42,015 nt of DNA from Deltaproteobacteria bacterium (GTDB lineage Bacteria > Myxococcota_A > Polyangia > Nannocystales > Nannocystaceae): assembly GCA_022601155.1 (NCBI GenBank), contig JAHZJA010000434.1, positions 1-42,015 of the forward strand. Reading direction: 5' to 3'. The notes beneath the pieces are model-generated. The model searched no databases and had not been told where the DNA came from. It saw nothing but the letters and a program-made list of their open reading frames with translations. How positions within the stretch are numbered: position 1 is the stretch's first letter; each line of letters opens with the position of its first letter. The position numbers were made by a program, and so were the translations under genes. Positions 10,966-39,380 of the stretch are shown here, one piece after another.

Positions 10966-11751
10966 TTACAGCTCCCCCGACAGCACGGACGCCGCACGTG
11001 CCGTCACCGTCTGGCCGACGAACGGCGGCTTGTCGTAGAGCGCTTCGAAGAGCGCGACGCAGTACGAGAACTGATCTGAGGTCGCGCTCAGAGGGGCCCG
11101 ACGAAACTGCTCGGGCGACATGTAGCGAGGCGTGCCGGCGATCGCTCCCGTCCGGGTCAGCTGCATCTCGAGCAGCGCTTCGCTGCGCGGTGAGGGATCC
11201 TCGTCGGCACTCGCGTCGCTCCTGAGCGCACGGGCGAGCCCGAAGTCGATGATGCGGGGCCGGCCGATTCGGTCGACGAGGATATTGTCGGGCTTGAGGT
11301 CGCGGTGAACGATGCCGAGCTCGTGCATGGCCTGCAGGCCCTCCGCGACGGCGGCAAAGACCTGCACCACCGTGGTCCAGGGGCGTGGTCGCTCCGCAAG
11401 CCAGGCACCGAGCGTGCGCCCCTCGATGTACTCCATCGCGATGTAGACCTGCCCTTGATGTCGCCCGACGTCGTAGACGGCGACGAGGTTCGGGTGGGAG
11501 AGCTTGGCGATCGCCCGAGCCTCGCGCAGCAGTCGGGTCTGCGCCGTGGCCGAGCTGAGGGCGTGGTCGTGGAGGACCTTGACCGCGACCCGACGGTCGA
11601 GCTCGCTGTCGTGGGCCTCGAACACCTGCCCCATGCCGCCGGCGCCCAGTCGACGAACGACCGAGAATCGGCCGATCTCCTTGCCGAGATCGTCCACCTT
11701 CGGTCCCACCTGCGCCTTGCTGTCGTCGGCAAGCGTGGTCCGGTGCACCAT
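10966..11751 (-). CDS. Ser/Thr protein kinase, truncated by an in-frame TAA
   Basis: Encodes 261 residues of a Hanks-type (PknB-like) kinase. The Gly-rich loop is at about 35-42 (LGAGGMGQVF), the ATP-binding Lys in VAVKVL at 58, the catalytic HRDLKPDN at 149-156, DFG at 169-171, and GTPRYMSPEQ with the Asp of ATSDQFSYCVALFEALYDKP after it. The stop falls just before subdomain XI, whose residues continue in phase downstream. It may still fold in part, but the ending is abnormal. Myxobacterial kinases of this build normally have a C-terminal membrane or TPR region, which here lies beyond the stop. The start at 11751 follows no obvious Shine-Dalgarno. Confidence 0.85.
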   Translation of the reverse strand: MVHRTTLADDSKAQVGPKVDDLGKEIGRFSVVRRLGAGGMGQVFEAHDSELDRRVAVKVLHDHALSSATAQTRLLREARAIAKLSHPNLVAVYDVGRHQGQVYIAMEYIEGRTLGAWLAERPRPWTTVVQVFAAVAEGLQAMHELGIVHRDLKPDNILVDRIGRPRIIDFGLARALRSDASADEDPSPRSEALLEMQLTRTGAIAGTPRYMSPEQFRRAPLSATSDQFSYCVALFEALYDKPPFVGQTVTARAASVLSGEL

Positions 11752-12110: not shown

Positions 12111-14378
12111 TCACCGGGTGGACGACCGAGGGGCGATCGACGAACCCGCCAACGCGGCGGGATCCGGGGCCGTCCACTCGGCGAGAGACCCGTGCCCCGC
12201 CGCGGCCCCCTGATCGACGACCTCCATGAACCGCCCGGTGTCGCCAGGGCCGAGCTCCTTGACGTCGGGACGAATGAGCAAGTCGGCCTGCCCCATCGCG
12301 CGCTCGGTCTGCGCGTCTGCTCCCAGGTTCATCGCGCTGCAGATGAGCAAAGCCAGGTTCGGCACGGCCAAGGGCTTGCGCCACGGCAGCAGCTTGCTCC
12401 ACAGGACCTGCCATGGAGAGGGCATGCCGGGACCGTCGTAGCTCAGGTCCATGCGACCTCCCACGTCCACGGCGATCACCGTCCCGCCGAAGATGCTGCG
12501 CGCGACGTCGGCGGGGACGTTGTTGAGCACGCCTCCGTCGACCAGCAGCTCGCCGTCGCTGGCGACCGGGGGAGCGAATCCGGGGACCGCCGAGCTGGCG
12601 AGCGTGGCCTCGACGATCGACCCGCGCTGGTGGATCCGCTGTGTGCGTCGGGTGAGGCTCGCCGAGGTGCACACGAAGGGGCGCCAGGTGTCCGCGATGT
12701 CGTCGTCGCCAAACACCGAGGTGCTCAGCTGTCGGAGGATCGCGCTGGACAACAAGGAGATGAGGGGCAGCGTCGGCCGGGCCAGCTTGGCGCCAGCGAC
12801 CTTCGACCGGCCGAACTCGACCAGCTCGTCCACCGTTCGCTCCTGCGCCAACGCGCCTCCGACGAACGCACCGACGCTGACGCCGACGATGGCGTCCACG
12901 GGTACACGGGCCGCCTCGAGTGCCCGGAAGACTCCCAGGTGCGCCATGCCTCGTGCTCCGCCCCCTCCGAGCACCACGGTCACACCGCGTCCGACCAACA
13001 GACGGGCCAGGCGCGACATGTGCGACGCGTCTCCCAGGCGGATGTTGACGTGCTGCGAGACCTCACGCGGATCGAGCCACGCGCGGGTTCCCTTGGGCAC
13101 TGCGGTCTTGGGGGGGTGGGCCAATACGAGGGTGTGACGGCCGGTGATCTCGTCGGCCATCACCCGCTCGAGCTCGGATGGCCGAGGGCCCGCGTCGGCG
13201 TGTCCGAGGACCACCAGATGGTTCGCCCAGTCCGCCGCGAAGCGGGCCCAGCCGTCGTCGCGCGGGTCGACAGCCAGGATCACGACCTCGTGGGCCTCGG
13301 CCTTGGCCTCGAGCCACAGTTGCATGCGCAACCAGCTCGGATGCTGCGGGCCGAAATCCTCGGTCGGGCTCCCCGACAGCCCAAGCTCGGTCAGGCTCCG
13401 GACCGTACAGACCTCGCTCGGCCCGAGCACGGCGAGGGCGTCGCCGAGCTGGCGGCAGAACGTGGCCACGTCGAGCTGGGGAGCGGCGCCCAGGACCGCG
13501 ATCCTCGTGTGGGCCACCGGGCGATGTCTCGAGCGGCGGTCGAGGTTGTCGATGGCCAGCGACGCGATCCCGGCGACGAGGCCGTGGGGGCACCGCTCGA
13601 GCAGTTCGAAGAAGTCGTCGCGGTCCAGCGCCAGCAGCTCGCTGCTGTCCAGGGCCGTCACCGACGCGGCGCGGGGACGCCTCGTGACGAGGGCGAGCGC
13701 GCCGAGTGCATCGCCTGGGCCCAGCTCGTTGATGAGCATCTCGCCCCGGTGAACCTTCAGGGCGCCGGTTCGGACCAGGTACCAGCGGTCGCCCGCATCC
13801 CCGGCCTCGAACAGGGGCTGTCCGCGGCCGAGGCGGAGCGGGTGAAGGCGCGCGACGAACTCTTCGACGAGCTCGTCGGGGAGGGGCCCGAGGGCCTCGC
13901 GCATCGCCCGACACGCTTGCTGGTGGCGCAGGCGCTCGCGGGACAGCTCGGCCATCGCGTCGAGCAATGCCGGGTACGCGCGCACGAGCACCTCGAAATC
14001 CTCCTGACCCAGGCGCTCGACGGTCACCCTTCCCCGAGCTCGGACCGTCGCGCTCCGCTGGCCGCCCACGAGCGCGTGGACCTCACCGAGCAGCGCCGGA
14101 GCGCGCACTGACGACACAAAGCGCTCGCCGTCGGGACCGCGCATGTAGACGGCAACTTCGCCACGGGTCAAGACGTAGAGCCCGTCGCCCTGCTCTCCTT
14201 GCTCGACGAGGACCGTGTTGGCCTCGAGGACCCGCTCGCTCAGCCTTCCCGCAATGTCCGTCAGGGCCTCTGTCGACAGCTGGTCGAGCCCGGGGATGCA
14301 CGAGAGCAATCGGGGCGTCGCGCCGGCGATCGTAGGGGCTCGCGTCGGCGAGCGCGGGGCTCCGTCGTAGGGGCTCAT
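12111..14378 (-). CDS. Cyclic-nucleotide-binding / patatin-like phospholipase (NTE family)
   Basis: Encodes 755 residues. Two cNMP-binding folds come first (about 25-150 and 165-270; for example VLVEQGEQGDGLYVLTRGEV and LFEAGDAGDRWYLVRTGALK). A middle region of about 180 residues follows, with an alpha/beta look. The C-terminal domain (about 465-650) is a patatin serine hydrolase with the oxyanion loop GGGGARG (471-477), nucleophile motif GVSVG (Ser501) and the catalytic Asp in DGG (614-616). This order is that of neuropathy target esterase and bacterial homologues, which hydrolyse phospho- or lysophospholipids at membranes. The cNMP domains suggest control by a nucleotide, but their ligand residues are not certain. 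All catalytic motifs are intact. Confidence 0.93.
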   Translation of the reverse strand: MSPYDGAPRSPTRAPTIAGATPRLLSCIPGLDQLSTEALTDIAGRLSERVLEANTVLVEQGEQGDGLYVLTRGEVAVYMRGPDGERFVSSVRAPALLGEVHALVGGQRSATVRARGRVTVERLGQEDFEVLVRAYPALLDAMAELSRERLRHQQACRAMREALGPLPDELVEEFVARLHPLRLGRGQPLFEAGDAGDRWYLVRTGALKVHRGEMLINELGPGDALGALALVTRRPRAASVTALDSSELLALDRDDFFELLERCPHGLVAGIASLAIDNLDRRSRHRPVAHTRIAVLGAAPQLDVATFCRQLGDALAVLGPSEVCTVRSLTELGLSGSPTEDFGPQHPSWLRMQLWLEAKAEAHEVVILAVDPRDDGWARFAADWANHLVVLGHADAGPRPSELERVMADEITGRHTLVLAHPPKTAVPKGTRAWLDPREVSQHVNIRLGDASHMSRLARLLVGRGVTVVLGGGGARGMAHLGVFRALEAARVPVDAIVGVSVGAFVGGALAQERTVDELVEFGRSKVAGAKLARPTLPLISLLSSAILRQLSTSVFGDDDIADTWRPFVCTSASLTRRTQRIHQRGSIVEATLASSAVPGFAPPVASDGELLVDGGVLNNVPADVARSIFGGTVIAVDVGGRMDLSYDGPGMPSPWQVLWSKLLPWRKPLAVPNLALLICSAMNLGADAQTERAMGQADLLIRPDVKELGPGDTGRFMEVVDQGAAAGHGSLAEWTAPDPAALAGSSIAPRSSTR

Positions 14379-14699: not shown

Positions 14700-15995
14700 A
14701 TGAACGTCATCGACGCCATCACCACGGCCACCTCCTCACCGTCGGCCTCCACCACCGTGCTGTCGATCGGCAACCTCGGTGTCACTCCCGAGGCGCAGCA
14801 CCTCGCCAAGCTCCGCCAGGCGAGCCTGCCCGATGAAGAGGTCGCCGCGAGCGTCACCGCCCTCGCTCGCCCCTTGATCGAGTCGTTGCCCCATGCCTAC
14901 GACGTCGTCCTCGTCGTGCTCCGGGGGGGCGGCCTGTTGACCCCCGCGCTGGAGCAGGCCGGCCACGCCGTCTCGGGCGTCCTCCCCTACGCCCTCGTGC
15001 TGCCCACGCTCGTCAATCCCGCCCCGCGCGTGCTCGTGTGCGACACGATGGCCGAGACCGGCAAGACTCTGGTCGACATTACCCAGCTCATTGCCGCCAC
15101 GTACCCGGATGCCGAGGTCGAGCTGCTGACCGTGTTCTCGACCGACGCCGCGCTCGAGCGCTTGCGCCCGAGCGTCGCGGCGTTCCACAACGCTCACCGT
15201 ATCGCGCCCGACGCCTTCTACCAGGTGGCGATGGACCTGCCCTACGACTTCGGCGATGTCGCGGAGAACGTCGGACTCAGCGGTGCCCGACTCGCTCGTC
15301 CGCCCCGCCCGATCGCGGGTGTGATCTTCGACTTCGACGACACCCTCATCGATAGCGGGTCGCTGTACTTCGAGGTCGACAGCATGGTGCTCGCCGAGCG
15401 CGGAGTGACGCTCACCCACGAACTCAACGCCGAGTTCATGGGGCACAGCCCTCGCGCCTTCTGGGAGCACCTGATCCGCGAGTTCGAGCTGTCCGAGACG
15501 GCCGATGCCCTGCTGGCGGAGACTCGTGCCCGCTACCTCCCTGTCGCCCGCGCCAAGCTCGAGCTGCTCCCGCACATGCTCGACTGCATCCGGTGGTTTG
15601 GCGAGCGCGGCTACCCGATGGCGGTGGCCTCTGGGAGCTCCCGGGACGTGCTCGAGTCGTTGCTGTCGCACTTCGGCATCCGAGACTCGTTCGAGGTGGT
15701 GCTCTCCTCCGAACAGGTCGCCCATCACAAGCCGGCGCCGGATGTGTTCCTCGAGGCCGCCGCGCGCATGGGCCTGGATCCGGCCGAGCTGCTCGTGTTC
15801 GAGGACTCGGCCGCGGGGGTGCTCGCGGCTCGCCGTGCGCGCATGCGCTGTGTGGCGATCCCGTCGAGCGCCGACGCGGTACGGCCGAGCCACCACATGG
15901 CCGATCTGTTGTTCGAGTCCGGGCGCGCGGGCTTCGACCTCGATCTGGTCATCGACCGGCTCTTGCCCGACGAGGAGCTGCAAGCCTGTGGATGA
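14700..15995 (+). CDS. Phosphoribosyltransferase-HAD hydrolase fusion
   Basis: Encodes 431 residues with two enzyme domains. Residues about 15-200 look like a type I phosphoribosyltransferase of the uracil type: LAKLRQ near 35-40, VVLRGGGLLTPALEQ at 73-85, and the PRPP loop VLVCDTMAETGKTLVD at 111-126. Residues about 205-425 are a HAD phosphatase of the beta-phosphoglucomutase/NagD-like subgroup: FDFDDTLID (nucleophile Asp211, Asp213), AVASGSSRD (Ser311), HHKPAPDVF (Lys344) and VFEDSAAG. All four HAD motifs are present. A likely role is making and dephosphorylating a nucleotide-like compound, by inference. The next gene overlaps its end. GGGAGGA touches the ATG, so the true start could be a few codons away. 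Confidence 0.85.
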   Translation: MNVIDAITTATSSPSASTTVLSIGNLGVTPEAQHLAKLRQASLPDEEVAASVTALARPLIESLPHAYDVVLVVLRGGGLLTPALEQAGHAVSGVLPYALVLPTLVNPAPRVLVCDTMAETGKTLVDITQLIAATYPDAEVELLTVFSTDAALERLRPSVAAFHNAHRIAPDAFYQVAMDLPYDFGDVAENVGLSGARLARPPRPIAGVIFDFDDTLIDSGSLYFEVDSMVLAERGVTLTHELNAEFMGHSPRAFWEHLIREFELSETADALLAETRARYLPVARAKLELLPHMLDCIRWFGERGYPMAVASGSSRDVLESLLSHFGIRDSFEVVLSSEQVAHHKPAPDVFLEAAARMGLDPAELLVFEDSAAGVLAARRARMRCVAIPSSADAVRPSHHMADLLFESGRAGFDLDLVIDRLLPDEELQACG

Positions 15996-16692
15996 GCGCA
16001 TCCTGTTCCTGGCGATCTTGACTCCGACCTGGGCGCTGTTGTTCGGCGCTGCATTACTGGTGCAGTGGCGGCGCCACGGCACCCTGGAGCACTGGGCATC
16101 GCCTACCGTCGCGGTGTTGCTCGGTCACGCGCTGATCTGCTCGAGCCTGTGTGTCGTCTACTACGCTCAGACGGGTCTCTCGCTCGACCACATTGGGCGC
16201 GCCAACAGCAGCTTCGCCAACTTCCTGGTCGCCAACACGTTGTGCTGCATGATGGTCGACCTCGTGTTCGCCGCGGCGCTCAGAACCCGGCACAAGCAGA
16301 CCTACGCTCACCATGTCCTCACGAGCCTCGGCGCTTTGGCCGTCCTTTATCACAACCTCTCGGGGTGGGAGTTCCTCCTCGCCGTCAGCACGGCCGAGCT
16401 GACGTTTTGCTTCTATCTACGACGCCTGCTTCGGATGCTCGACTACGACAACGAGCGCGTGCTCGGCATCGTCGCTCAGGGACAGACGATCGGGACGATA
16501 CTCGTGCGTGGTGTCATCCATCCGCTGCTGGCCGTTGCGGTCGTCTCGTCCGAGCAGGTGATGCTGGCGGAGAAGGTACTCACGGTGATGTTCTTCGCGC
16601 TGGGGGCTTTTTGGGTGTTCACCCTGGTCCGCGGTCGCATCGCCCGTGCTCGCAGGATCTCGACGTCGAGTCAGCCGGCCGCAGCGTGTTGA
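15988..16692 (+). CDS. TLC-domain-like polytopic membrane protein
   Basis: The GTG at 15988 overlaps the last 8 nt of the PRTase-HAD gene, with GAGGAG 11 nt upstream, so the two are translationally coupled; 234 residues. Six to seven hydrophobic helices are visible (for example LFLAILTPTWALLFGAALLV and SLCVVYYAQTGLSLDH). The middle has an HH pair (residues 108-109) followed by AVSTAELTFCFYLRRLL (132-148), the layout of TLC (TRAM-LAG1-CLN8) domains of the TLCD/TMEM56 kind, which read HH...E(L/V)STPF.N.R. In eukaryotes such proteins act in ceramide or membrane-lipid metabolism. The assignment rests on pattern only. Function here is unknown. Confidence 0.75.
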   Translation: MDERILFLAILTPTWALLFGAALLVQWRRHGTLEHWASPTVAVLLGHALICSSLCVVYYAQTGLSLDHIGRANSSFANFLVANTLCCMMVDLVFAAALRTRHKQTYAHHVLTSLGALAVLYHNLSGWEFLLAVSTAELTFCFYLRRLLRMLDYDNERVLGIVAQGQTIGTILVRGVIHPLLAVAVVSSEQVMLAEKVLTVMFFALGAFWVFTLVRGRIARARRISTSSQPAAAC

Positions 16693-16768: not shown

Positions 16769-17158
16769 TCATCGCGGTTCTCCGGGAAGGCACGAACTAT
16801 AGGCTGCCTCTTCGGAGCCGCACGGTTCCTGCCCCTGTGGCGCGGTGTAGTGCAGCGCGTATTCGGGACACTCGTACTGCTGCATGCAGTCATACAGATC
16901 TTGCATGAGCACTGCGCATGTGCGCTCCCATACGACGTCGCCAATACACGCCTGATAGCAGCCCGCCTCGTCGTCAAAGCTGACGGTCCCTGCGTGCTCG
17001 AACGCGCACTCCATCATCCGGGAACAGCGGACTTCACACAACGGCTCGATCCGAAGGTCAGGTTCGATCTGCTCCTCGATCTGCCGCTCGTTGCAGTTGC
17101 AACTTGCGCTGAGCAGGAGCAGTGCGCTGACCGTGGAACGGAGAACTAGCATCTCCAT
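16769..17158 (-). CDS. Small Cys-rich lipoprotein
   Basis: About 129 residues. The signal peptide LRSTVSALLLLSASC carries a lipobox, followed by CNER. The mature part has about eight further cysteines in pairs (LCEVRC, CAFEH, CYQAC, CAVLM, CMQQYEC, C near the end), a pattern seen in many myxobacterial lipoproteins of unknown role. The ATG at 17158 or the one two codons later could be the start. It converges with the TLC-like gene. Confidence 0.8.
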   Translation of the reverse strand: MEMLVLRSTVSALLLLSASCNCNERQIEEQIEPDLRIEPLCEVRCSRMMECAFEHAGTVSFDDEAGCYQACIGDVVWERTCAVLMQDLYDCMQQYECPEYALHYTAPQGQEPCGSEEAAYSSCLPGEPR

Positions 17159-17258
17159 CAAATACCACCACGACCTCGGAGGACCGTGCGTTCTTCGTCG
17201 AGCAGCGGTTCATTCCGGTTGTTCATACGAGCCGAAGCTGCTGTCGCGACACGCTCGG

Positions 17259-18600: not shown

Positions 18601-18900
18601 GCTGCGGCCTGGCGTGGGATCTACAGGAGGAAGTCATGGGCCGAACGACGACCGCGGCTCTCGAGCAGGCTGCCAGATTCCTTGGTGGTGGGGTCGTGAA
18701 CTCGATGATCGAGGCATTCTGGAGGTCACTCCGGCACCAATGACTCTACCGGTATGACCTTGACTCTCTGGCGACAGTGCGGCGCACAGGTCGACTTTCT
18801 ACATCGCGGAGCGCAACACGATGATTGTCCCACGCCGCCTTCGATGGCCACACCCCGGACGAGGTCGACTTCGGCCGGCCTTCGGTGGCGTCCGAAATCC
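18601..18900 (+). pseudogene. Second degenerate integrase-type transposase fragment
   Basis: Reads LAWDLQEEVMGRTTTAALEQ, then after an internal deletion NSMIEAFWRSLRHQ, a stop in place of Trp, LYRYDLDSLATVRR, and after further frame changes HAAFDGHTPDEVDFG. It is homologous to the remnant at 1866-2345 (LAWQLSDEIMGQTT; NSMIAVFWKSLRH) and carries the C-terminal part missing there. The deletion removes about 60 residues of the catalytic core. Confidence 0.75.
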
Positions 18901-19021
18901 CGGCGCGCCGCATGACGGGTCCCGGTCATGCGTGGCATGTGTTCCATCCTCATCGGACCGACCGACTGCCCCCACAACGCCATAGGTCGCCGCGTGACCT
19001 CTCCGCGCACTTGCGACACGT

Positions 19022-19563
19022 CTACTGCCAAATGTCATGCCCCGCAGCAGGGCGGTGGACCGCGGCGTGGCGGGAGCGAGCGGGGGTGAGGGAAGCTGTG
19101 CGGGAGCGGGCGCGCGGGCCGGGCTCGCGGGGCGCGGGGGCGAGATCGACGGGCGCATCGATGACCGCGCGCGGACCCGCGACGGTCGCGTCGGCGGTCG
19201 GCGTGGTCAGGGCCACCATGCCCAGGGCGGAGATACCGATGGCAACGGTGAGGGCCAGGGCCTTGCCCTGCGCGGTGACGGAGGCGGCCGCGGTCGTGCC
19301 CGCGGTGGTCGTCACGGGAGCCGGTCCGACGAGCCTGGCGACCGATGCCACCCATCCACGCTGGAGCGCCCGCGGCGGGGGTGGCTGCTCGTGGGCCTGT
19401 CGAACGTGCACGGGCGACAGCGCGATGCCGTCGGCGTTGACCTGCGCGCAGGCACGTTCGAAGGCGGCCCGGGCCGCACGCAGTCGCGAGGAGGCGGTGT
19501 TCTGGTTGACGCCCACGTGCTCTGGACAACCCCCCGCGGTATGCCACTGTAGATCTCTCCCAC
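19022..19563 (-). pseudogene. ECF-type sigma factor C-terminal remnant with membrane tail
   Basis: On the minus strand EIYSGIP, then in another frame GVNQNTASSRLRAARAAFER, reconstruct sigma-70 region 4.2. A linker follows, then a hydrophobic helix LALTVAIGISALGMVALTTP, then a Pro/Ala-rich tail to a stop at 19022. Regions 2 to 4.1 are absent and one frameshift lies near 19530. A C-terminal membrane helix on an ECF sigma factor is unusual but known in several bacterial groups. The 3' end overlaps the short interspersed motif. Confidence 0.5.
19028..19055 (+). repeat. Short interspersed motif, copy 3
   Basis: ccaaatgtcatgccccgcag cagggcgg, compare 3569 and 10154. Confidence 0.5.
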
Positions 19564-20536: not shown

Positions 20537-20595
20537 CGAGCTGCTGATCCCGCGGGTGTTGTGAGCTGGTCCAGGGCTTGCAGCATCACCGCGGG

Positions 20596-21321
20596 ATGAT
20601 GCTCCGTACCATGCTCGCCTTGACGGCATTCGCGGCCGTGACCGGCGTAGCGACCGTCACCTCTGCCGCCTTCACGTGGAGCCCGTACTTCTCCGAGGAG
20701 AGCCAACCCCCCCAGGAGTTCTGCACTTCCGTGGGTCAGGCCGTCGACGGAGTTCGATGCCAGGGTAGCTACTGCGACGACATTGGTATCCGCTGCAACG
20801 ACTTGCCGTTCGGAATGACGGCCGAGGGCCACAACTGGGAAGCGCTGATCACCGACGACCCCGATGCGGCAATTCCCCTCGGTACGATCGGAACCCACAG
20901 CTACATCGTCAGCGATGAGTACGGCCATGTCTGCGGCTTGGGCAGCGGAATTCTGACAGGTCTGCACTGTTCGGGCAGCTACTGCGACGACGTCACCCTC
21001 CAGTGCGCCACACCGACGATGGACTACCAGGGAGCCAAGGTGCCGGGCGAGCTGGTCAACTGTTTTTGGTCCAACTACTACTCGGAGGAAGATCCGTGGT
21101 TCGCGTACGGAGCCACCGCCAACCTGTGGATCTCGGGGATCGAGTGCTACGGCTCGTACTGTGACTCGAAGAAGTACCGGGTGTGCGAGCTCGCCAACCC
21201 GGCGAGCTGTGAGGACACGTGCGGCGCGCAGGCCTCCGCCGGCTGCTGGTGCGACTCGCAGTGCACCGAGCTGGGGGATTGCTGCGAGGATTACGTGTCT
21301 GCGTGCTCGACCCGCAATTGA
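20596..21321 (+). CDS. Secreted Cys-rich protein with somatomedin B-like domain (copy A)
   Basis: Encodes 241 residues from the first of two adjacent ATGs. A signal peptide (about 1-25, ending VTSAA) precedes three units that each hold C.GSYCDD or a variant and a final Cys (about 54-68, 124-137, 184-197). Residues 203-237 form a somatomedin B-like domain with eight Cys in the order C-x3-C-x7-C-x-C-x3-C-x5-CC-x6-C, very near the animal pattern. Secreted and disulfide-bonded, by inference. Somatomedin B domains in animals bind proteins such as PAI-1; no function is known for this bacterial form. The next gene is a close paralogue. Confidence 0.88.
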   Translation: MMLRTMLALTAFAAVTGVATVTSAAFTWSPYFSEESQPPQEFCTSVGQAVDGVRCQGSYCDDIGIRCNDLPFGMTAEGHNWEALITDDPDAAIPLGTIGTHSYIVSDEYGHVCGLGSGILTGLHCSGSYCDDVTLQCATPTMDYQGAKVPGELVNCFWSNYYSEEDPWFAYGATANLWISGIECYGSYCDSKKYRVCELANPASCEDTCGAQASAGCWCDSQCTELGDCCEDYVSACSTRN

Positions 21322-21557: not shown

Positions 21558-21606
21558 CGGCGGGGTGCGACCGGGTGGCCCATGGGACTGTCGTGTAACC
21601 GTCCCC

Positions 21607-21630
21607 GTGACAGGCGGCGTCGCGATCGAA
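21607..21630 (+). promoter_or_regulatory. Conserved upstream motif, copy 3
   Basis: gtgacaggcggcgtcgcgat cgaa, about 57 nt before the start of copy B, the same spacing as copy 1 has to copy A. Confidence 0.4.
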
Positions 21631-21687
21631 CAAGTGGCTGACCCCGCGGGCCCGTGCGCTGGTTCAGGGCTTGCAGCAGGACGTCGG

Positions 21688-22404
21688 ATGATGTTCCGTA
21701 CCATCCTCGCCTGCTCGGTATTCGCGGCCGTGGCCAGCGTTGCGACCGTCACCTCGGCCGCCTTCACATGGAGCCCGTACTTTTCCGAGGAGAGCCAACC
21801 ACCCCAGGAGTTCTGCTCTCCCACGGGCCAGGCCGTCGACGGTGTTCGATGCCAGGGTAGCTATTGTGACGACGTTGGCATCCGCTGCAACGACTTGCCG
21901 TTCGGAATGACGACCGAGGGGCACAACTGGGAAGCGCTGATCACCGACGGAGGCTATAACCCCGATTTCATCATCCATTCCGACCACATCGTCAGCGACG
22001 ACAACGGCCACGTCTGCGGCTTGGGCACCGGAATCCTGACGGGCCTACACTGCTCGGGCAGCTACTGCGACGACGTCACCCTCGAGTGCGCCACGCCGGT
22101 GTTGAACTACAACGGAACCAACGTACCGGGCGAGTTGGTCAGCTGCTTTTGGTCTGACGTCTACTCGGAAGAGGACCCGTGGTTCGCCTACGGAGCCACC
22201 GCCAACCGGTGGATCACGGGGATCAAGTGCTACGGCTCGTACTGCGACGCCAAGAGTTATCGGGTCTGCCAGCTCACCAACCCGGCGAGCTGCGAGGATA
22301 CCTGCGGCACGCAGGCCGCCGCCGGCTGCTGGTGCGACTCGCTGTGCACCGACAATGAAGATTGTTGCGACGACTTCGAATCGGCGTGTTCGACCCGCGT
22401 TTGA
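21688..22404 (+). CDS. Secreted Cys-rich protein with somatomedin B-like domain (copy B)
   Basis: Encodes 238 residues, very similar to the preceding gene over its whole length. The signal peptide (MMFRTILACSVFAAVASVAT...), the three GSYCD units and the eight-Cys somatomedin B-like C-terminus (SCEDTCGTQAAAGCWCDS onward) are all present. The clearest difference is a shorter stretch around residue 90 (GGYNPDFII against DDPDAAIPLGTIG). Frame and cysteines are conserved, so both copies appear functional. The 5' leader is also duplicated, so the pair may share regulation. Confidence 0.88.
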   Translation: MMFRTILACSVFAAVASVATVTSAAFTWSPYFSEESQPPQEFCSPTGQAVDGVRCQGSYCDDVGIRCNDLPFGMTTEGHNWEALITDGGYNPDFIIHSDHIVSDDNGHVCGLGTGILTGLHCSGSYCDDVTLECATPVLNYNGTNVPGELVSCFWSDVYSEEDPWFAYGATANRWITGIKCYGSYCDAKSYRVCQLTNPASCEDTCGTQAAAGCWCDSLCTDNEDCCDDFESACSTRV

Positions 22405-31697: not shown

Positions 31698-31913
31698 GAC
31701 TCGAACGTAGGGTTGGCGGGTTCCGATGTCCGTGGTGACTCGGTTGTGATCCGTTGCGAGATGTTGCGCGCCCGTGGCGAGTCCGCGCCGTGGTCTCGCT
31801 CGGGTCGCAGGTCGCCCCTCGAACGAACCGCAGCGAGCGACGCTCGTTTTGTAGCGAACCGTAGATCCGGGCACACACCGCCGCAGGACGTGCTACTGAC
31901 CTATCTCGGTACG
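31698..31913. promoter_or_regulatory. Divergent promoter region of propeller lipoprotein and two-component system
   Basis: 216 nt separate the two start codons. The response regulator may act here, but no operator is identified. Confidence 0.35.
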
Positions 31914-32618
31914 ATGTCGAACGAGACGGCACGCCTTCTCATCGTCGAAGACGACGACCAGCTCGCGACCCTCCTGCTCGAGTATCTGGGCCAGCACGGG
32001 TTCGCGCTGTCGCGGATCTCGGCCGGTGACCACGCGGCCGAGACGATCCTCGCGTCGAACCCGGACCTGGTCGTGCTGGACCTGATGCTGCCGGGCAGCA
32101 ACGGCCTCGACGTATGCCGAGAGGTTCGCGATCGCTACAAAGGAGCCATCTTGATGCTCACCGCGAGCCAGAGCGAGGTCGACCACGTGGCTGGCCTCGA
32201 GCTCGGTGCGGACGATTTCGTGACCAAGCCGATCGAGCCCCGGGTGCTGTTGGCCCGGATCCGCGCCCAGCTCCGCAAGCTGGGCGCTACGCGAGCATGG
32301 GACGCCGCCAACGACGGGCTCCTGACCGTCGGTGCGCTGCACGTCGACGCGAAATCGCGCGACGTGAGCGTGAACAGCCAGCCGGTGTCGCTGACGACCA
32401 TGGAGTTCGACGTGTTGCTGATGCTCGCCCGTGAGGCGGGCACCGTCGTGACGCGAGACGAACTCTACCTCAAGATCGCGGGCGCCGAGTACGACGGAGT
32501 CGACCGCGGCATGGACGTTCACGTCAGCCGCCTTCGTCGCAAACTCCAGCGCTCGGGCTTCGACCCCTCGCGCCTCAAGTCGGTGCGCGGCATGGGGTAC
32601 CTCCTGGCTTCGCGATGA
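31914..32618 (+). CDS. OmpR-family response regulator (RstA-like)
   Basis: Encodes 234 residues. The receiver domain (about 5-118) has the acidic pair EDDD at 12-15, the phosphoacceptor Asp56 in VVLDLMLP, and FVTKPI. The C-terminal winged helix (about 135-232) has SLTTMEFDVLLMLAREAG and DVHVSRLRRKLQ, then RSVRGMGYLL-like ending. It controls transcription when phosphorylated by the kinase encoded directly downstream, whose ATG overlaps its stop (ATGA). The RstA subgroup is suggested by general form only. Confidence 0.95.
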   Translation: MSNETARLLIVEDDDQLATLLLEYLGQHGFALSRISAGDHAAETILASNPDLVVLDLMLPGSNGLDVCREVRDRYKGAILMLTASQSEVDHVAGLELGADDFVTKPIEPRVLLARIRAQLRKLGATRAWDAANDGLLTVGALHVDAKSRDVSVNSQPVSLTTMEFDVLLMLAREAGTVVTRDELYLKIAGAEYDGVDRGMDVHVSRLRRKLQRSGFDPSRLKSVRGMGYLLASR

Positions 32619-33910
32619 GACGCTCCTTCCGTCGGTTGATCGCGGCGAGCGTCCTGATGGCGTGGTTGCTGGGGTTCGTGGTCATCATGGTCTGGTCACG
32701 GACGAAGTCTTGGACACAGGAGCGCGCCCAGGGCGATGCGATCTTCTTGTTCCACGAGCTACTCGACCAGACCCCCGCGGCGGATCGGGCCGAGCGGTTG
32801 GCCGAGCTTCAAGCGCACTCCCGGGTCGAGCTCTCCCTCGTGTCGGTCGACGACGTCGAGCGTCGCGTGGGCCGAGCCGTCCACCCCGGAGAACGCATCC
32901 CGTACCGCGAGAACACCAGCGACAACTGGTACTTCTGGGTGGAGGAGTGGTACCTCATGGTGTTCGACGACGGCGAGGGAGCGCTGTCGGCCGGCCCGGT
33001 CAACCCCGCCCTACCACGCGGGATCTTCCCGATCGGTCTGATCGTCGCGATCATCGGTCTTCCCGCGATTGCGGCACTGGTTGCTCTGCGCGTGGAGCGA
33101 GAGCTCACCAAGGTCGAGCGGGCGACCGAAGCGCTCGGCGTCGGTGAACTCAGTGCTCGCGTCGAGGATGCCCGGGGTCCGTCGCATGAGCTCGCCGACA
33201 AGTTCAACGCAATGGCGGAGAAGGTCGAGCGCCTGATCCGGAGCCGCGACGAGCTGATACAGGCCGTCTCGCACGAGCTCGGCTCTCCTCTGTCACGGCT
33301 ACGCTTTCACATGGAGCTGCTCGAGCGTCAGTCGGAGGATGAGCGGGACCAGCGACTCTCCGCCATGACCCGCGAGCTCGATGCGGTCGACGAGCTCGTG
33401 GCCGAGCTGCTGACCTACGTGCAGTCCGAAGATCTGCAGCTCGAGGCCCGGCGCTTCGATCCGAGTCAGGGCCTGCGCGACCTCGCCGAGCTGGCCGTCC
33501 TCGAGGCTCCCGAGGACCGCGTCGTCGACATCCAGACGTCGCTACCGCCGGGCGTCGAGGTCTACGCGGACCAGCGTCTGTTCCTGCGGGCGGTCGAGAA
33601 CATCCTGCGCAACGCGATGCGCTACGCCCGTCACGACGTCCGGCTGGAGCTGTTGTCGCAGGCCGATCGAGTTCGGGTGACCGTGCATGATGACGGCCCG
33701 GGGATCCCGACCGACGTACGCGACAAGATCATGCTCCCGTTCGTCCGCCTCGAGGCCGATCGCGGCCGAAAGACGGGCGGCGTGGGGCTGGGCCTTGCCA
33801 TCGTCAGCCGGATCGTCAACCGGCACGGGGGCAGCGTCGAGATCGGAGACTCCCCGCTTGGCGGCGCCACGGTCTCGACCTCGTGGCCGACCCGCGACAG
33901 TCGAGGCTAG
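32615..33910 (+). CDS. Sensor histidine kinase (RstB/CpxA-like)
   Basis: Encodes 431 residues. A first membrane helix (about 10-27), a periplasmic part of about 110 residues, a second helix (about 138-158), a HAMP domain (to about 210), a dimerisation H-box AVSHELGSPLSRLRF (His220) and an ATPase domain with NILRNAMRYA, DDGPGIP and GVGLGLAI. It senses an envelope signal and phosphorylates the regulator in the same operon, with which it overlaps by 4 nt. The signal is unknown. Confidence 0.95.
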   Translation: MRRSFRRLIAASVLMAWLLGFVVIMVWSRTKSWTQERAQGDAIFLFHELLDQTPAADRAERLAELQAHSRVELSLVSVDDVERRVGRAVHPGERIPYRENTSDNWYFWVEEWYLMVFDDGEGALSAGPVNPALPRGIFPIGLIVAIIGLPAIAALVALRVERELTKVERATEALGVGELSARVEDARGPSHELADKFNAMAEKVERLIRSRDELIQAVSHELGSPLSRLRFHMELLERQSEDERDQRLSAMTRELDAVDELVAELLTYVQSEDLQLEARRFDPSQGLRDLAELAVLEAPEDRVVDIQTSLPPGVEVYADQRLFLRAVENILRNAMRYARHDVRLELLSQADRVRVTVHDDGPGIPTDVRDKIMLPFVRLEADRGRKTGGVGLGLAIVSRIVNRHGGSVEIGDSPLGGATVSTSWPTRDSRG

Positions 33911-35509: not shown

Positions 35510-36463
35510 TCATCCTGCCCCTCGACTCCTCGACGGCGAAGCCGCCTGGGCCGCTTGCACGGAAGGCTCGGTGGACTCGGCGAGCTCGGACACGAACAGC
35601 TCCTGTAGACTCTCGCCGAACCGGCTCTGCATCGCGCCGACGAGCTCGGCGATCGCCTCGTCGTCGTTCACCAGCGGTCTGGCATTCGCTTCGAAGCGCG
35701 CCTGCAGCTCGGTGCGGGCGCTGGCCAGCCACCGAGACATGGTGGACTCGTGCACGTCGTAGGACCCCGCCAGGGCGTTGGCCTGGACGCCTTCGAGATA
35801 GCGAAGCCGCAGCAGTGCGCGCTCCCGGGGCCCGAGCGAGTGAAACGCTTCGCCCAGCGCCTGCATGAACAGACTGCGGCGCGAGGCCTTCAGCGCGGCG
35901 AACTCTGGGCTGGCGCCGATCAGCTCCGGCGCGCGCTCGAGCGGTTTCGTTCCCTTGCCATCCCGGATCGCATTGAGGGCCAGCCGCGCGGCCACGGTAC
36001 GGGTCCAGCCCTCCAGGCTGCCCCAGCCCCGGTAAAGAGCGATGCGAGCGGGCCCCTGCGGGCTGGGGACGAGGAGCTGGACGCGGATGTGCTGCGCCAG
36101 CTCGGTGCGCTGGTCCTCCGACAGGGAGAAGCGCCGCAGCGTCCGCTCGAGCTGGGGACCCAGCCGCTGCTCGAACACCCGCACCGCATCGTCGTCGCCA
36201 TCGGCAAGCGCGGCACACAGCCAGATATCGGCTGCGTTGAGGGTGACCAGGTGCTCGCTCCACTCCGAGCGCTCGCGGTCCTGCAGGCACGCCCTGAGCT
36301 GCTGGACCAGCGCCTGTGCGGTCGGCACGAAGTCCTGGTACACGCCGCTTGCATCCGCGAGCGCCGATGCGAGCCTCGACTCGAGCGCCGAGTCGTGCGA
36401 GCCCGCGAGCCGCGACGATACGTCGTGCGCCAGCGTGTCCGTCGGCCGCGCTATGGTGCCCAC
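35510..36463 (-). CDS. ECF-like RNA polymerase sigma factor
   Basis: Starting at the GTG 36463, 317 residues. The N-terminal 90 residues are unlike standard ECF. A region 2-like segment is near FEQRLGPQLERTLRRFSLSE, followed by GWTRTVAARLALNAIRDGKG. Region 4 lies at about 215-265, with FHSLGPRERALLRLRYLEGV and HESTMSRWLASARTELQ, a clear helix-turn-helix. The build matches myxobacterial sigma factors linked to protein kinases. The kinase at 36471 is divergent, with 7 nt between the start codons. The tail after 265 (about 50 residues) is Glu/Ser/Ala-rich. Confidence 0.8.
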   Translation of the reverse strand: MGTIARPTDTLAHDVSSRLAGSHDSALESRLASALADASGVYQDFVPTAQALVQQLRACLQDRERSEWSEHLVTLNAADIWLCAALADGDDDAVRVFEQRLGPQLERTLRRFSLSEDQRTELAQHIRVQLLVPSPQGPARIALYRGWGSLEGWTRTVAARLALNAIRDGKGTKPLERAPELIGASPEFAALKASRRSLFMQALGEAFHSLGPRERALLRLRYLEGVQANALAGSYDVHESTMSRWLASARTELQARFEANARPLVNDDEAIAELVGAMQSRFGESLQELFVSELAESTEPSVQAAQAASPSRSRGAG

Positions 36464-36470
36464 GGTGTCG

Positions 36471-39380
36471 ATGATGACACAGGGGTGTCCGAACGACGAC
36501 CAGCTCGCCGCGTTCGCCGAAGGACAGCTGGACCCGGCGCAACGCAGTGCGGTCGAGGAGCACCTGGCCGGCTGCACCGATTGCAGCGCCGTCGTCAGTG
36601 CGACCTTCGCGGAGTCGTTGCCGCCGGAACACACCAAAGTGGGTCGCTACCAGGTGGTCGCGGAGATCGGGCGGGGCGGCATGGGGCGTGTGCTCAGGGC
36701 GCGGGATCCATCGCTCGGCCGCGACGTCGCGATCAAGAGCATCCTCCCGTCCGCGCTGTCGCCCGCGGCCAAGGAGCGATTCGCCCGAGAGGCAGTCGTC
36801 CTGGGGACGCTTCGGCACCCCAACGTCATCGAGGTGTTCGACGCCGGAGAGTTGGAGGGCGCCCCGTATTTCGTCATGGAGTTCATCGAGGGACAAGACC
36901 TGGACCAGTGGTGCAAAGACCGTCCCGTGCGAGAGGTTCTGGACTGCCTGTGCGGCGCGGGGCGAGGGCTGGCGGCGGCGCACGCCAAGGGCATCCTGCA
37001 TCGCGACTTCAAGCCCTCCAACGTCATCGTGGGGCGAGACGACCGGGCGAAGGTCGGTGACTTTGGGCTTGCGACCTTCGGCGGAGGTTCGTCGGTCCGT
37101 ACCGACGGGGCGTCGGTCGACACGCTGACCCAGACCGGGGCCCTCATGGGGACGCTGCCGTACATGGCCCCCGAGCTCCTCGAAGGAGGAAGAGCCAGCG
37201 AACTCAGCGACCAGTTCGCCTTCTGCGTGACGATGTACGAAGTGCTCTACGGTCAGCGCCCGTTCGCGGGGAAGGATCCGTGGTCGCTGGCGGAGGCGAT
37301 CCGCAGCGGCGAGATTCGAGACGGCCCCGCCGCAGTGGCCATCCCTCGTCGCGCTCATCGGGCCCTCGTACGCGGGCTCTCGCCGGAGCCCAGCGGTCGA
37401 TTTCCTTCGATGCGAGCCTTGCTGGCCGAACTCCATCCCCGGCGCCGGGTTGCGCTCAGGGTGGGGGCGGGTCTGGCTGCTACCGGGGCCGTCGTTGCCG
37501 TGGCCGCGGCTGTGGGCAGCACGACGCCGTCGGTCTGCGACACTTTCGCTGAGCGTCTCAGCGGGGTCTACGACTCGCGCGTACGCAGCCGAATCCGCAG
37601 CGCGTTCGCGGACTCCGATCTGCCGTACGCCGAGACCGCCTCGCGTGGCACCCTCGAGGGGTTGGATGCCTACGCGGAGCGATGGGCCGCGGGCGCGAAG
37701 GAGAGCTGTGGCGCCGCCCAGCGCGGCGAGCTGAGCGACGTAGCCCTCGATCTCCGGGTGCGCTGCTTCAAGCATTCGGCACAGAGCGTCGAGGCGATGG
37801 TCGGTCTGCTGCAGACCCCCCAGACCATCCACATCGAGAGCAGTCGGGAACTGCTGGCGGCGCTTCCCAACCTGGCCGTGTGCACCGACGCCGAGGCGCT
37901 GCGGCGCTTTGGCGTGCTGCCGGCCAACGCCGCCGAGGCGGCCGAGGCCGATGCCCTGGGCGCCGTGTTGAGCGAGGCGCACGCCCAAGCTCTGGTCGAC
38001 GACTTCGACGGCGCGTGGGACGTACTGGAGCGCAACGCCGAGGCCCTCGCCGCTGCCTCCTACCCGCCGGTCCGAAGCCGGACCCTCGCACTGCGGGCAA
38101 GGGTTCTGCTGGCCCGCAAAGACCTCGAAGCGTCCAGAGACGCGAGCGTGCAGGCACACGAGCTGACGATGGAGCACCGACTCGATCGCGAAGCGTCGCG
38201 GACGGCGACCTTCCTCGGGAGGATCGCCTCCCGCACCGGGGACGTCCAGGGCGCGCACCGGTGGTTCGACTTGGCGCTCGCCCTCGCCGAGTCGGGAGGC
38301 TTCACTCAGCTCCAGGCCCACACGCTCTCGACCGCGTCTCGGTTCTACCAGGAGCGTGGAGAGCTCCAGCGTGCCGTCCAAGCCGCGCGCCGAGCCGTCC
38401 AGTTGATCGAGGACGACGACGCCTACCCGGAGACGTCGCGAGCCGAGGTGCTGCTGGCCTACTCCGACCGCCTCCTGTCGCGGGGGGGAAGAGACGACGG
38501 CCTGGCCCAGCTCCAACGAGCGCACGAGATCCTGCTCGCTGTCCACGGGGACACCCATCCGGCCGTCGGCGATGTGCAGCGCTCTCTTCAGGAGCGAGCG
38601 TCGCGACGCGGTGACTACGACGCCTCGTACCGGCACGGGCGTGAAGTACTTCGCATCACGATGGCGCTCGATGGCCCAACATCGCTGCGGGCAGTCGCGG
38701 CCTCCGCGAACTTGGCAATCTCTCTGCGAGAGCTCGGGCGCTTCGCCGAGGCGGCGCGGGAGCTGGCGCATGCCAATACCCTGCTCGACCAGTGGCCGGC
38801 CTACGTGCCGATGCTCCGGATCCCGATCTTGACCAATCTCGGCAGCGTCATGCTGGGCCTGGGCGACAACGACGGTGCCCGCGACGCTCTGACCCGCGCC
38901 AAGGCGCTGTTCGAGGCGCAAGAAAACCGCAAGGAGCAAGGCATCCTGGTCGACGGACTGTTGTCGGCAGTCGAGCTGCGTGATGACAACCTCGCGGCAG
39001 CGCGCAGCCTCGCCGCTGGCGCGCTGGCGGCGTCGACAGAGGTCTATGGCGGCGACAACTTTCACACCGCAGACGCCGGGATGCGTCTTGCTCACGTCGA
39101 GCTGGCCGCGGGCAACTACGCGTTGGCGCGAGATCTGCTCGCCGGGGCGCTGGCCGTCCAAGACATCAACGAAGCCGACCGGGGAGAGATGACGTTCGGC
39201 CTCGCGCGAGCCACCTACGAGGACCCTCGAGCCTCGCCCCGCGATCGCGCGCGAGGCCTCGAGCTGGCCCGCGACGCCAAGCTCGCCCTGCAGGGCAAGC
39301 CTGCCTACGGAAGGCAGCAGGCCGAGGTCGCACTGTGGCTCCGCCAGCGGTCGGAGGACTCGTGCACTGGTTGCGACTGA
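36471..39380 (+). CDS. Ser/Thr kinase with zinc-finger anti-sigma-like N-terminus, membrane helix and TPRs
   Basis: Encodes 969 residues. Residues 6-38 (C6, H31, C35, C38; EEHLAGCTDC) match the zf-HC2 motif of zinc-binding anti-sigma factors. The kinase domain runs from about 58 to 322: IGRGGMGRV, VAIKS (Lys89), HRDFKPSN (177-184), DFG (197-199) and MAPE (232-235). A membrane helix follows at about 328-348. The remaining 600 residues are helical TPR-like repeats. All kinase residues are present. ATG 36471, GTG 36465 or ATG 36453 could start it; I prefer 36471. The divergent sigma factor is the likely partner. Confidence 0.92.
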   Translation: MMTQGCPNDDQLAAFAEGQLDPAQRSAVEEHLAGCTDCSAVVSATFAESLPPEHTKVGRYQVVAEIGRGGMGRVLRARDPSLGRDVAIKSILPSALSPAAKERFAREAVVLGTLRHPNVIEVFDAGELEGAPYFVMEFIEGQDLDQWCKDRPVREVLDCLCGAGRGLAAAHAKGILHRDFKPSNVIVGRDDRAKVGDFGLATFGGGSSVRTDGASVDTLTQTGALMGTLPYMAPELLEGGRASELSDQFAFCVTMYEVLYGQRPFAGKDPWSLAEAIRSGEIRDGPAAVAIPRRAHRALVRGLSPEPSGRFPSMRALLAELHPRRRVALRVGAGLAATGAVVAVAAAVGSTTPSVCDTFAERLSGVYDSRVRSRIRSAFADSDLPYAETASRGTLEGLDAYAERWAAGAKESCGAAQRGELSDVALDLRVRCFKHSAQSVEAMVGLLQTPQTIHIESSRELLAALPNLAVCTDAEALRRFGVLPANAAEAAEADALGAVLSEAHAQALVDDFDGAWDVLERNAEALAAASYPPVRSRTLALRARVLLARKDLEASRDASVQAHELTMEHRLDREASRTATFLGRIASRTGDVQGAHRWFDLALALAESGGFTQLQAHTLSTASRFYQERGELQRAVQAARRAVQLIEDDDAYPETSRAEVLLAYSDRLLSRGGRDDGLAQLQRAHEILLAVHGDTHPAVGDVQRSLQERASRRGDYDASYRHGREVLRITMALDGPTSLRAVAASANLAISLRELGRFAEAARELAHANTLLDQWPAYVPMLRIPILTNLGSVMLGLGDNDGARDALTRAKALFEAQENRKEQGILVDGLLSAVELRDDNLAAARSLAAGALAASTEVYGGDNFHTADAGMRLAHVELAAGNYALARDLLAGALAVQDINEADRGEMTFGLARATYEDPRASPRDRARGLELARDAKLALQGKPAYGRQQAEVALWLRQRSEDSCTGCD

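Follow-up and report, generated by a model that had tools for sequence, protein, structure and literature searches.

The two genes described here lie side by side in a window of 42,015 nucleotides that is an entire contig (C1044) of a Nannocystaceae genome bin (10.8 Mb, 72% complete, 1522 contigs). ORF A (14700..15995, + strand, 431 amino acids) encodes a phosphoribosyltransferase (PRTase)-like domain fused to a HAD phosphatase, and ORF B (15988..16692, + strand, 234 amino acids) starts with GTG and encodes a TLC-type membrane protein with seven predicted helices. Both are real genes that overlap by exactly 8 nt (15988..15995, + strand), with the ORF A stop codon at 15993-15995 and the ORF B GTG at 15988, as the preliminary description of this DNA had reported. 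They form an isolated pair on one strand, with a divergent gene upstream and a convergent gene downstream. GC content at codon positions 1/2/3 in ORF A (.71/.46/.89) and ORF B (.62/.45/.83) resembles that of the adjacent patatin gene (.74/.51/.87), and both ORFs are therefore coding-like. Where exactly ORF A begins is uncertain, because GGAGG lies only ~1 nt ahead of the ATG at 14700. The divergent neighbour (12111-14378, − strand), 321 bp upstream of ORF A, is an NTE-type patatin gene whose product carries two cNMP-binding domains, an NTE P-loop-like domain and a patatin lipase with GGGGARG, GVSVG and DGG motifs. Downstream of ORF B, the convergent gene (16769-17161, − strand) encodes a small cysteine-rich protein.

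The C-terminal half of ORF A (15306..15992, + strand) is, judged by sequence, certainly a HAD phosphatase. The domain spans residues 205-400, is of the C1 cap type and resembles beta-phosphoglucomutase and HxpB, with all motifs intact: DFDDT (Asp211, at 15330), ASGSS (15627), HKPAPD (15726; K344) and FEDS (15798). It passes the Pfam cut-off for PF13419 with ease (E 4.9e-31; 108.7 bits, cut-off 23.8), matches TIGR02009 at E 6.9e-32 and 1te2 at E 8.5e-24, and is nearest to small sugar-phosphate phosphatases. HxpB/beta-phosphoglucomutase-type HADs share its four motifs and C1 cap (E 1e-30 to 1e-32), but ORF A falls below their equivalog cut-offs and has an extra N-terminal PRTase. The HAD half also resembles pseudouridine-5'-phosphatase (5e-14) and AlnB (1.6e-6), a phosphatase acting on a ribosylated antibiotic intermediate.

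The N-terminal half of ORF A (14700..15305, + strand; residues 1-202) bears a weak but real resemblance to PRTases in its sequence, and its assignment is less well supported than those of the HAD and TLC proteins. A type I PRTase PRPP loop, VLVCDTMAETGKT, is present, and matches to both PF00156 and PF14681 centre on this PRPP-binding region (VLVCDTMAETGKTLVD; 15030..15077, + strand). PF00156 (Pribosyltran) matches over the loop at E 1.9e-4, below the curated cut-off of the family, and PF14681 (UPRTase) reaches 18.7-19.1 bits without passing its cut-off of 27. The only NCBIfam models to match the N-terminal half are two for uracil PRTase and one for hypoxanthine-guanine PRTase (0.004-0.01), the last of these over a separate loop, LRGGGLL (14919..14939, + strand; Arg75 at 14922), which reads as a candidate pyrophosphate-binding loop. 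Together with the PF13419 match, the PF00156 and NCBIfam matches bear out the earlier proposal that a PRTase and a HAD phosphatase are fused in one gene.

This half was compared with uracil PRTase, as also proposed earlier. Alignment of ORF A with Upp of related genomes by hhalign lines up the LRGGGLL and PRPP loops with the LRxGxGLL and D-x-M-x-x-TG loops of Upp (PF14681), a result that is suggestive only (E 0.011, probability 3.7). By contrast, the base-binding loop PGLGDAGDR, invariant in the Upp alignment, is absent from ORF A, which has YDFGDVAEN, a faint echo, at the expected place; ORF A further differs from Upp in its score under the cut-off and in the fused HAD. A single-sequence model of the PRTase half is unusable (pLDDT 40), and the two PRTases among its top five fold matches are non-significant. 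A canonical uracil PRTase is encoded elsewhere in the same genome (G000:C549, E 4.9e-75), which argues against a housekeeping salvage role for ORF A. Together with the loss of the PGLGDAGDR loop, it also suggests a base that is probably not simply uracil. Many genomes of the phylum encode a divergent uracil-PRTase-like family (L054, L057, L060, L063, L064, L066 and L067) of about 270-280 amino acids, with a long insertion, Pfam UPRTase matches of about 1e-12 to 1e-18 and an ending PGxGGxGE that replaces PGLGDAGDR; ORF A aligns with this family more poorly than with canonical Upp.

Assignment of ORF B to the TLC proteins is well supported by evidence of several kinds. The Pfam TLC profile (PF03798) matches ORF B itself below its gathering cut-off (E 0.49; 10.7 bits, cut-off 24.6), and a TLC family search of 284 genomes of the phylum returned zero matches over that cut-off. 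The two sub-threshold matches of the same search, in the Myxococcota genomes G156 and G256, are homologues of ORF B (30% identity over 162 residues, E 5e-13) and match the TLC profile at E 9e-5 and 2e-4 (21.9 and 22.9 bits, cut-off 24.6). ORF B is polytopic, and an AlphaFold model built from the three sequences has seven helices, at low confidence (pLDDT 52). Among 350,542 PDB chains, the two best matches to this model are yeast ceramide synthase, 8qtn and 8qtr (probability 0.87 and 0.77, E 0.42), and in BFVD eight of the nine best matches are viral proteins named as TLC-domain proteins (probability 1.00, best E 0.008). No fold match in PDB or BFVD falls under E 0.001, and the TLC fold call is therefore based on the consistent ranking of the fold matches combined with the sequence evidence. 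The profile and structure check suggested in the preliminary description thus went against ORF B in the direct Pfam search and in its favour in the E-values of the homologues and the fold ranking. An hmmsearch of PDB sequences with the ORF B profile gave zero matches. A weak Pfam match to Arnt_C (0.027) covers only 37 residues and disagrees with the fold results, and we rejected it.

That TLC enzymes work as ping-pong acyltransferases was established only in 2024-2025, with eukaryotic members (PMC11919693, PMC11838012). In CerS6, His211 is the acyl carrier and acts with His212, Asp239, Asp242 and Arg275 (PMC11919693); TLCD1 uses His117, needs Asp98 for passing the acyl group on and needs Glu145 for activity, and disease mutations in CLN8 fall at His139 and Arg204 (PMC11838012). 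ORF B carries AVSTAELTFCFYLRRLL besides an HH pair, and by spacing it has a counterpart of each TLCD-type catalytic residue tested, invariant in our conservation alignment of three sequences (ORF B and the homologues from G156 and G256): Asp91 (16258..16260) for TLCD1 Asp98, His108-His109 (16309..16314) for CerS6 His211-His212 and TLCD1 His117, Glu137 (16396..16398) for TLCD1 Glu145, and Arg174 (16507..16509) for CLN8 Arg204 and CerS6 Arg275, all on the + strand. In ORF B, the Asp-His spacing is 17-18 residues (19 in TLCD1), the His-Glu spacing 28-29 (28 in TLCD1) and the His-Arg spacing 65-66 (65 in CLN8, 64 in CerS6). When the ORF B sequence is shuffled, a pattern with these spacings turns up in 0.1% of cases, a figure that serves as a guide since the pattern was picked after the papers had been seen. 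In the low-confidence model these residues lie on helices 3, 4, 5 and 6.

The same arrangement of Asp on helix 3, His-His on helix 4, an acidic residue on helix 5 and Arg on helix 6, within the seven-helix fold predicted for ORF B, is found in TLCD1, YPR114w, FLD-1 and CLN8, from which ORF B differs in being bacterial, in scoring under the Pfam cut-off and in the overlap of its gene with a PRTase-HAD gene. Ceramide synthases (CerS6, Lag1/Lac1) provide the top PDB folds, and ORF B keeps their His-His and Arg, but a single Glu137 takes the place of CerS6 Asp239 and Asp242. The Lag1p motif, two Asp 28 and 31 residues past the first His, is accordingly missing (ORF B 136-139 reads A-E-L-T), which places ORF B closer to TLCD1 and CLN8 than to ceramide synthase; no known sphingolipid genes were found among the neighbours tested. 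The TLC matches, the modelled fold and the invariant residues at catalytic spacings and helices indicate that ORF B is probably an acyl-CoA acyltransferase. That it is a bacterial TLC-fold acyltransferase is our firmest new claim, one that by our own estimate is likely to be right, and the TLC layout noticed at first sight of the sequence has become stronger through the agreement of catalytic residues and fold.

These residues also bear on two readings in which ORF B is not an enzyme. ORF A could salvage bases or dephosphorylate nucleotides while ORF B transports the base or nucleoside, in keeping with a polytopic protein whose reading frame begins before ORF A has ended; we consider this very improbable, as the fold and residue matches of ORF B are to acyltransferases and not to transporters. 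Alternatively, ORF A might make a nucleoside-like signal to which ORF B responds as a receptor or effector in the membrane, as proposed for Ter systems, where PRTases and HAD phosphoesterases are candidate signal makers and transmembrane components respond (PMC7824862). Ter-type modules do combine a PRTase with a HAD and a proposed nucleoside product, as in ORF A, but TerB, TerC, TerD, TelA and vWA proteins are absent among the neighbours tested, PRTase_2 scores 14.6 bits against ORF A (cut-off 28.8), PADLOC finds no match for either ORF, the membrane partner is a TLC protein and its intact catalytic residues point to an enzyme. The relation to Ter systems raised in the preliminary description is consequently not supported, and a signalling role of this type appears improbable. 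Given the PADLOC result, we also rejected the pair as a defence system.

The pair has a narrow distribution. Relatives of the PRTase half of ORF A were found in none of 98 relatives, 379 genomes of the phylum and 318 of the class, nor in plasmids or phages, nor by peptide-pattern scans of IMG/VR and GTDB, which use 8-residue patterns and are insensitive; nine weak matches in the phylum, read individually, are chance matches. Homologues of ORF B occur in 2 other genomes of the 379 in the phylum (G156 and G256), both of which lack a PRTase-HAD, and none that is convincing was found in the class genomes. At the longer of the two loci (L020), the neighbours, as read from translations, are an RND efflux pair and glutathione-transferase-like and ferritin-like genes. 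ORF A and ORF B were not found together in any other genome searched. Of the earlier expectation that the two genes stay together in relatives, one half is contradicted by the two ORF B homologues without ORF A; on the other half, no ORF A homologue was found. The association is therefore the weak part of the argument, as the case for the pairing comes down to an 8-nt overlap seen in a single genome. The two genes may instead be chance neighbours of unrelated function in a strain-specific region, or the contig may be mis-binned. The pair is missing from all relatives tested, a search of the sister species at E 1e-60 gave no match to the patatin neighbour, the neighbourhood of the pair is not kept there, and the bin is incomplete and fragmented. 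We nevertheless regard chance or mis-binning as unlikely in view of the overlap, of repeat families that the contig shares (77-84% identity) with several others in the bin, and of two stretches, 16769-17161 and 18698-19054, repeated at 72-84% identity in several of the other contigs, which tie this contig to the bin.

The overlapping genes suggest an undescribed route that would make a ribosylated compound and attach a fatty acid to it. If two translationally coupled genes make up such a pathway, the PRTase-like half of ORF A would move 5-phosphoribose from PRPP to a nucleobase-like acceptor, the fused HAD would strip the 5'-phosphate to leave a neutral nucleoside-like alcohol, and ORF B would form an acyl-histidine from acyl-CoA and, at the membrane, acylate a hydroxyl of the ORF A product to yield a lipidated nucleoside-like compound. 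We favour this coupled ribosylation, dephosphorylation and acylation because the overlap needs explaining and because TLC enzymes can esterify thiamine. TLCD1 and its homologues from yeast and worm do so besides acting on lysophosphatidylethanolamine, although thiamine was a poor, non-saturating substrate, and the authors explain the reaction by the small size of the active site and by a ping-pong mechanism with tolerance for different acceptors (PMC11838012). Also in favour are the 8-nt overlap of an isolated same-strand pair, the affinities of the HAD half and the TLC residues and folds of ORF B. Set against it are the single genome with both genes and the two with an ORF B homologue and no ORF A, the divergent PRTase half with its unusable model and missing PGLGDAGDR loop, and the lipid nature of the acceptors for which TLC enzymes are best known, thiamine being a poor one. 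On balance, we put the probability of a nucleoside-like alcohol made by the PRTase-HAD and acylated by ORF B at roughly one in three, with the joint pathway itself inferred from translational coupling in one genome. The full claim, a bacterial lipidated-nucleoside pathway that unites PRPP ribosylation and dephosphorylation in one polypeptide with fatty-acid esterification by a TLC enzyme, is more doubtful. On the earlier idea that the product is used or exported at a membrane, the evidence leans towards use, by acylation, rather than export.

Nearly as likely as the coupled pathway is the possibility that ORF B is a TLCD1/CLN8-like lysophospholipid acyltransferase that remodels membrane lipids, perhaps in a deacylation-reacylation cycle with the adjacent NTE-type patatin lipase, and that ORF A, which would share only a transcript with it, acts separately in salvage or repair. 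TLCD1, YPR114w, FLD-1 and CLN8 all acylate lysophospholipids (PMC11838012), the neighbouring gene has the cNMP-binding, P-loop-like and patatin domains described above, and ORF B homologues exist without ORF A. This possibility leaves the tight coupling of ORF A and ORF B unexplained, however, and the patatin gene is divergent and 321 bp away, with none beside the ORF B homologue at L020.

TLC acyltransferases are an enzyme class characterized so far in eukaryotes, and the main texts of the two mechanistic studies (PMC11919693, PMC11838012) leave bacteria unmentioned. A small bacterial member with intact catalytic residues would offer a simpler system for studying TLC mechanism and origin and, if it is true that the PRTase-HAD supplies the acceptor, would also bring to light acylated nucleoside-like metabolites as a new class.

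Elsewhere in the window, tandem paralogous genes (20578-21321 and 21565-22404, both + strand) encode secreted cysteine-rich proteins, the first of which has a match to Somatomedin B (5e-7), a domain familiar chiefly from animals. At 31713-33910 (+ strand), genes for a response regulator and a sensor histidine kinase overlap by 4 nt, and Ser/Thr kinase genes of a kind typical of large myxobacterial genomes lie at 10966-11751 (− strand) and 36042-39380 (+ strand), the latter with a zinc-finger and TPR repeats.
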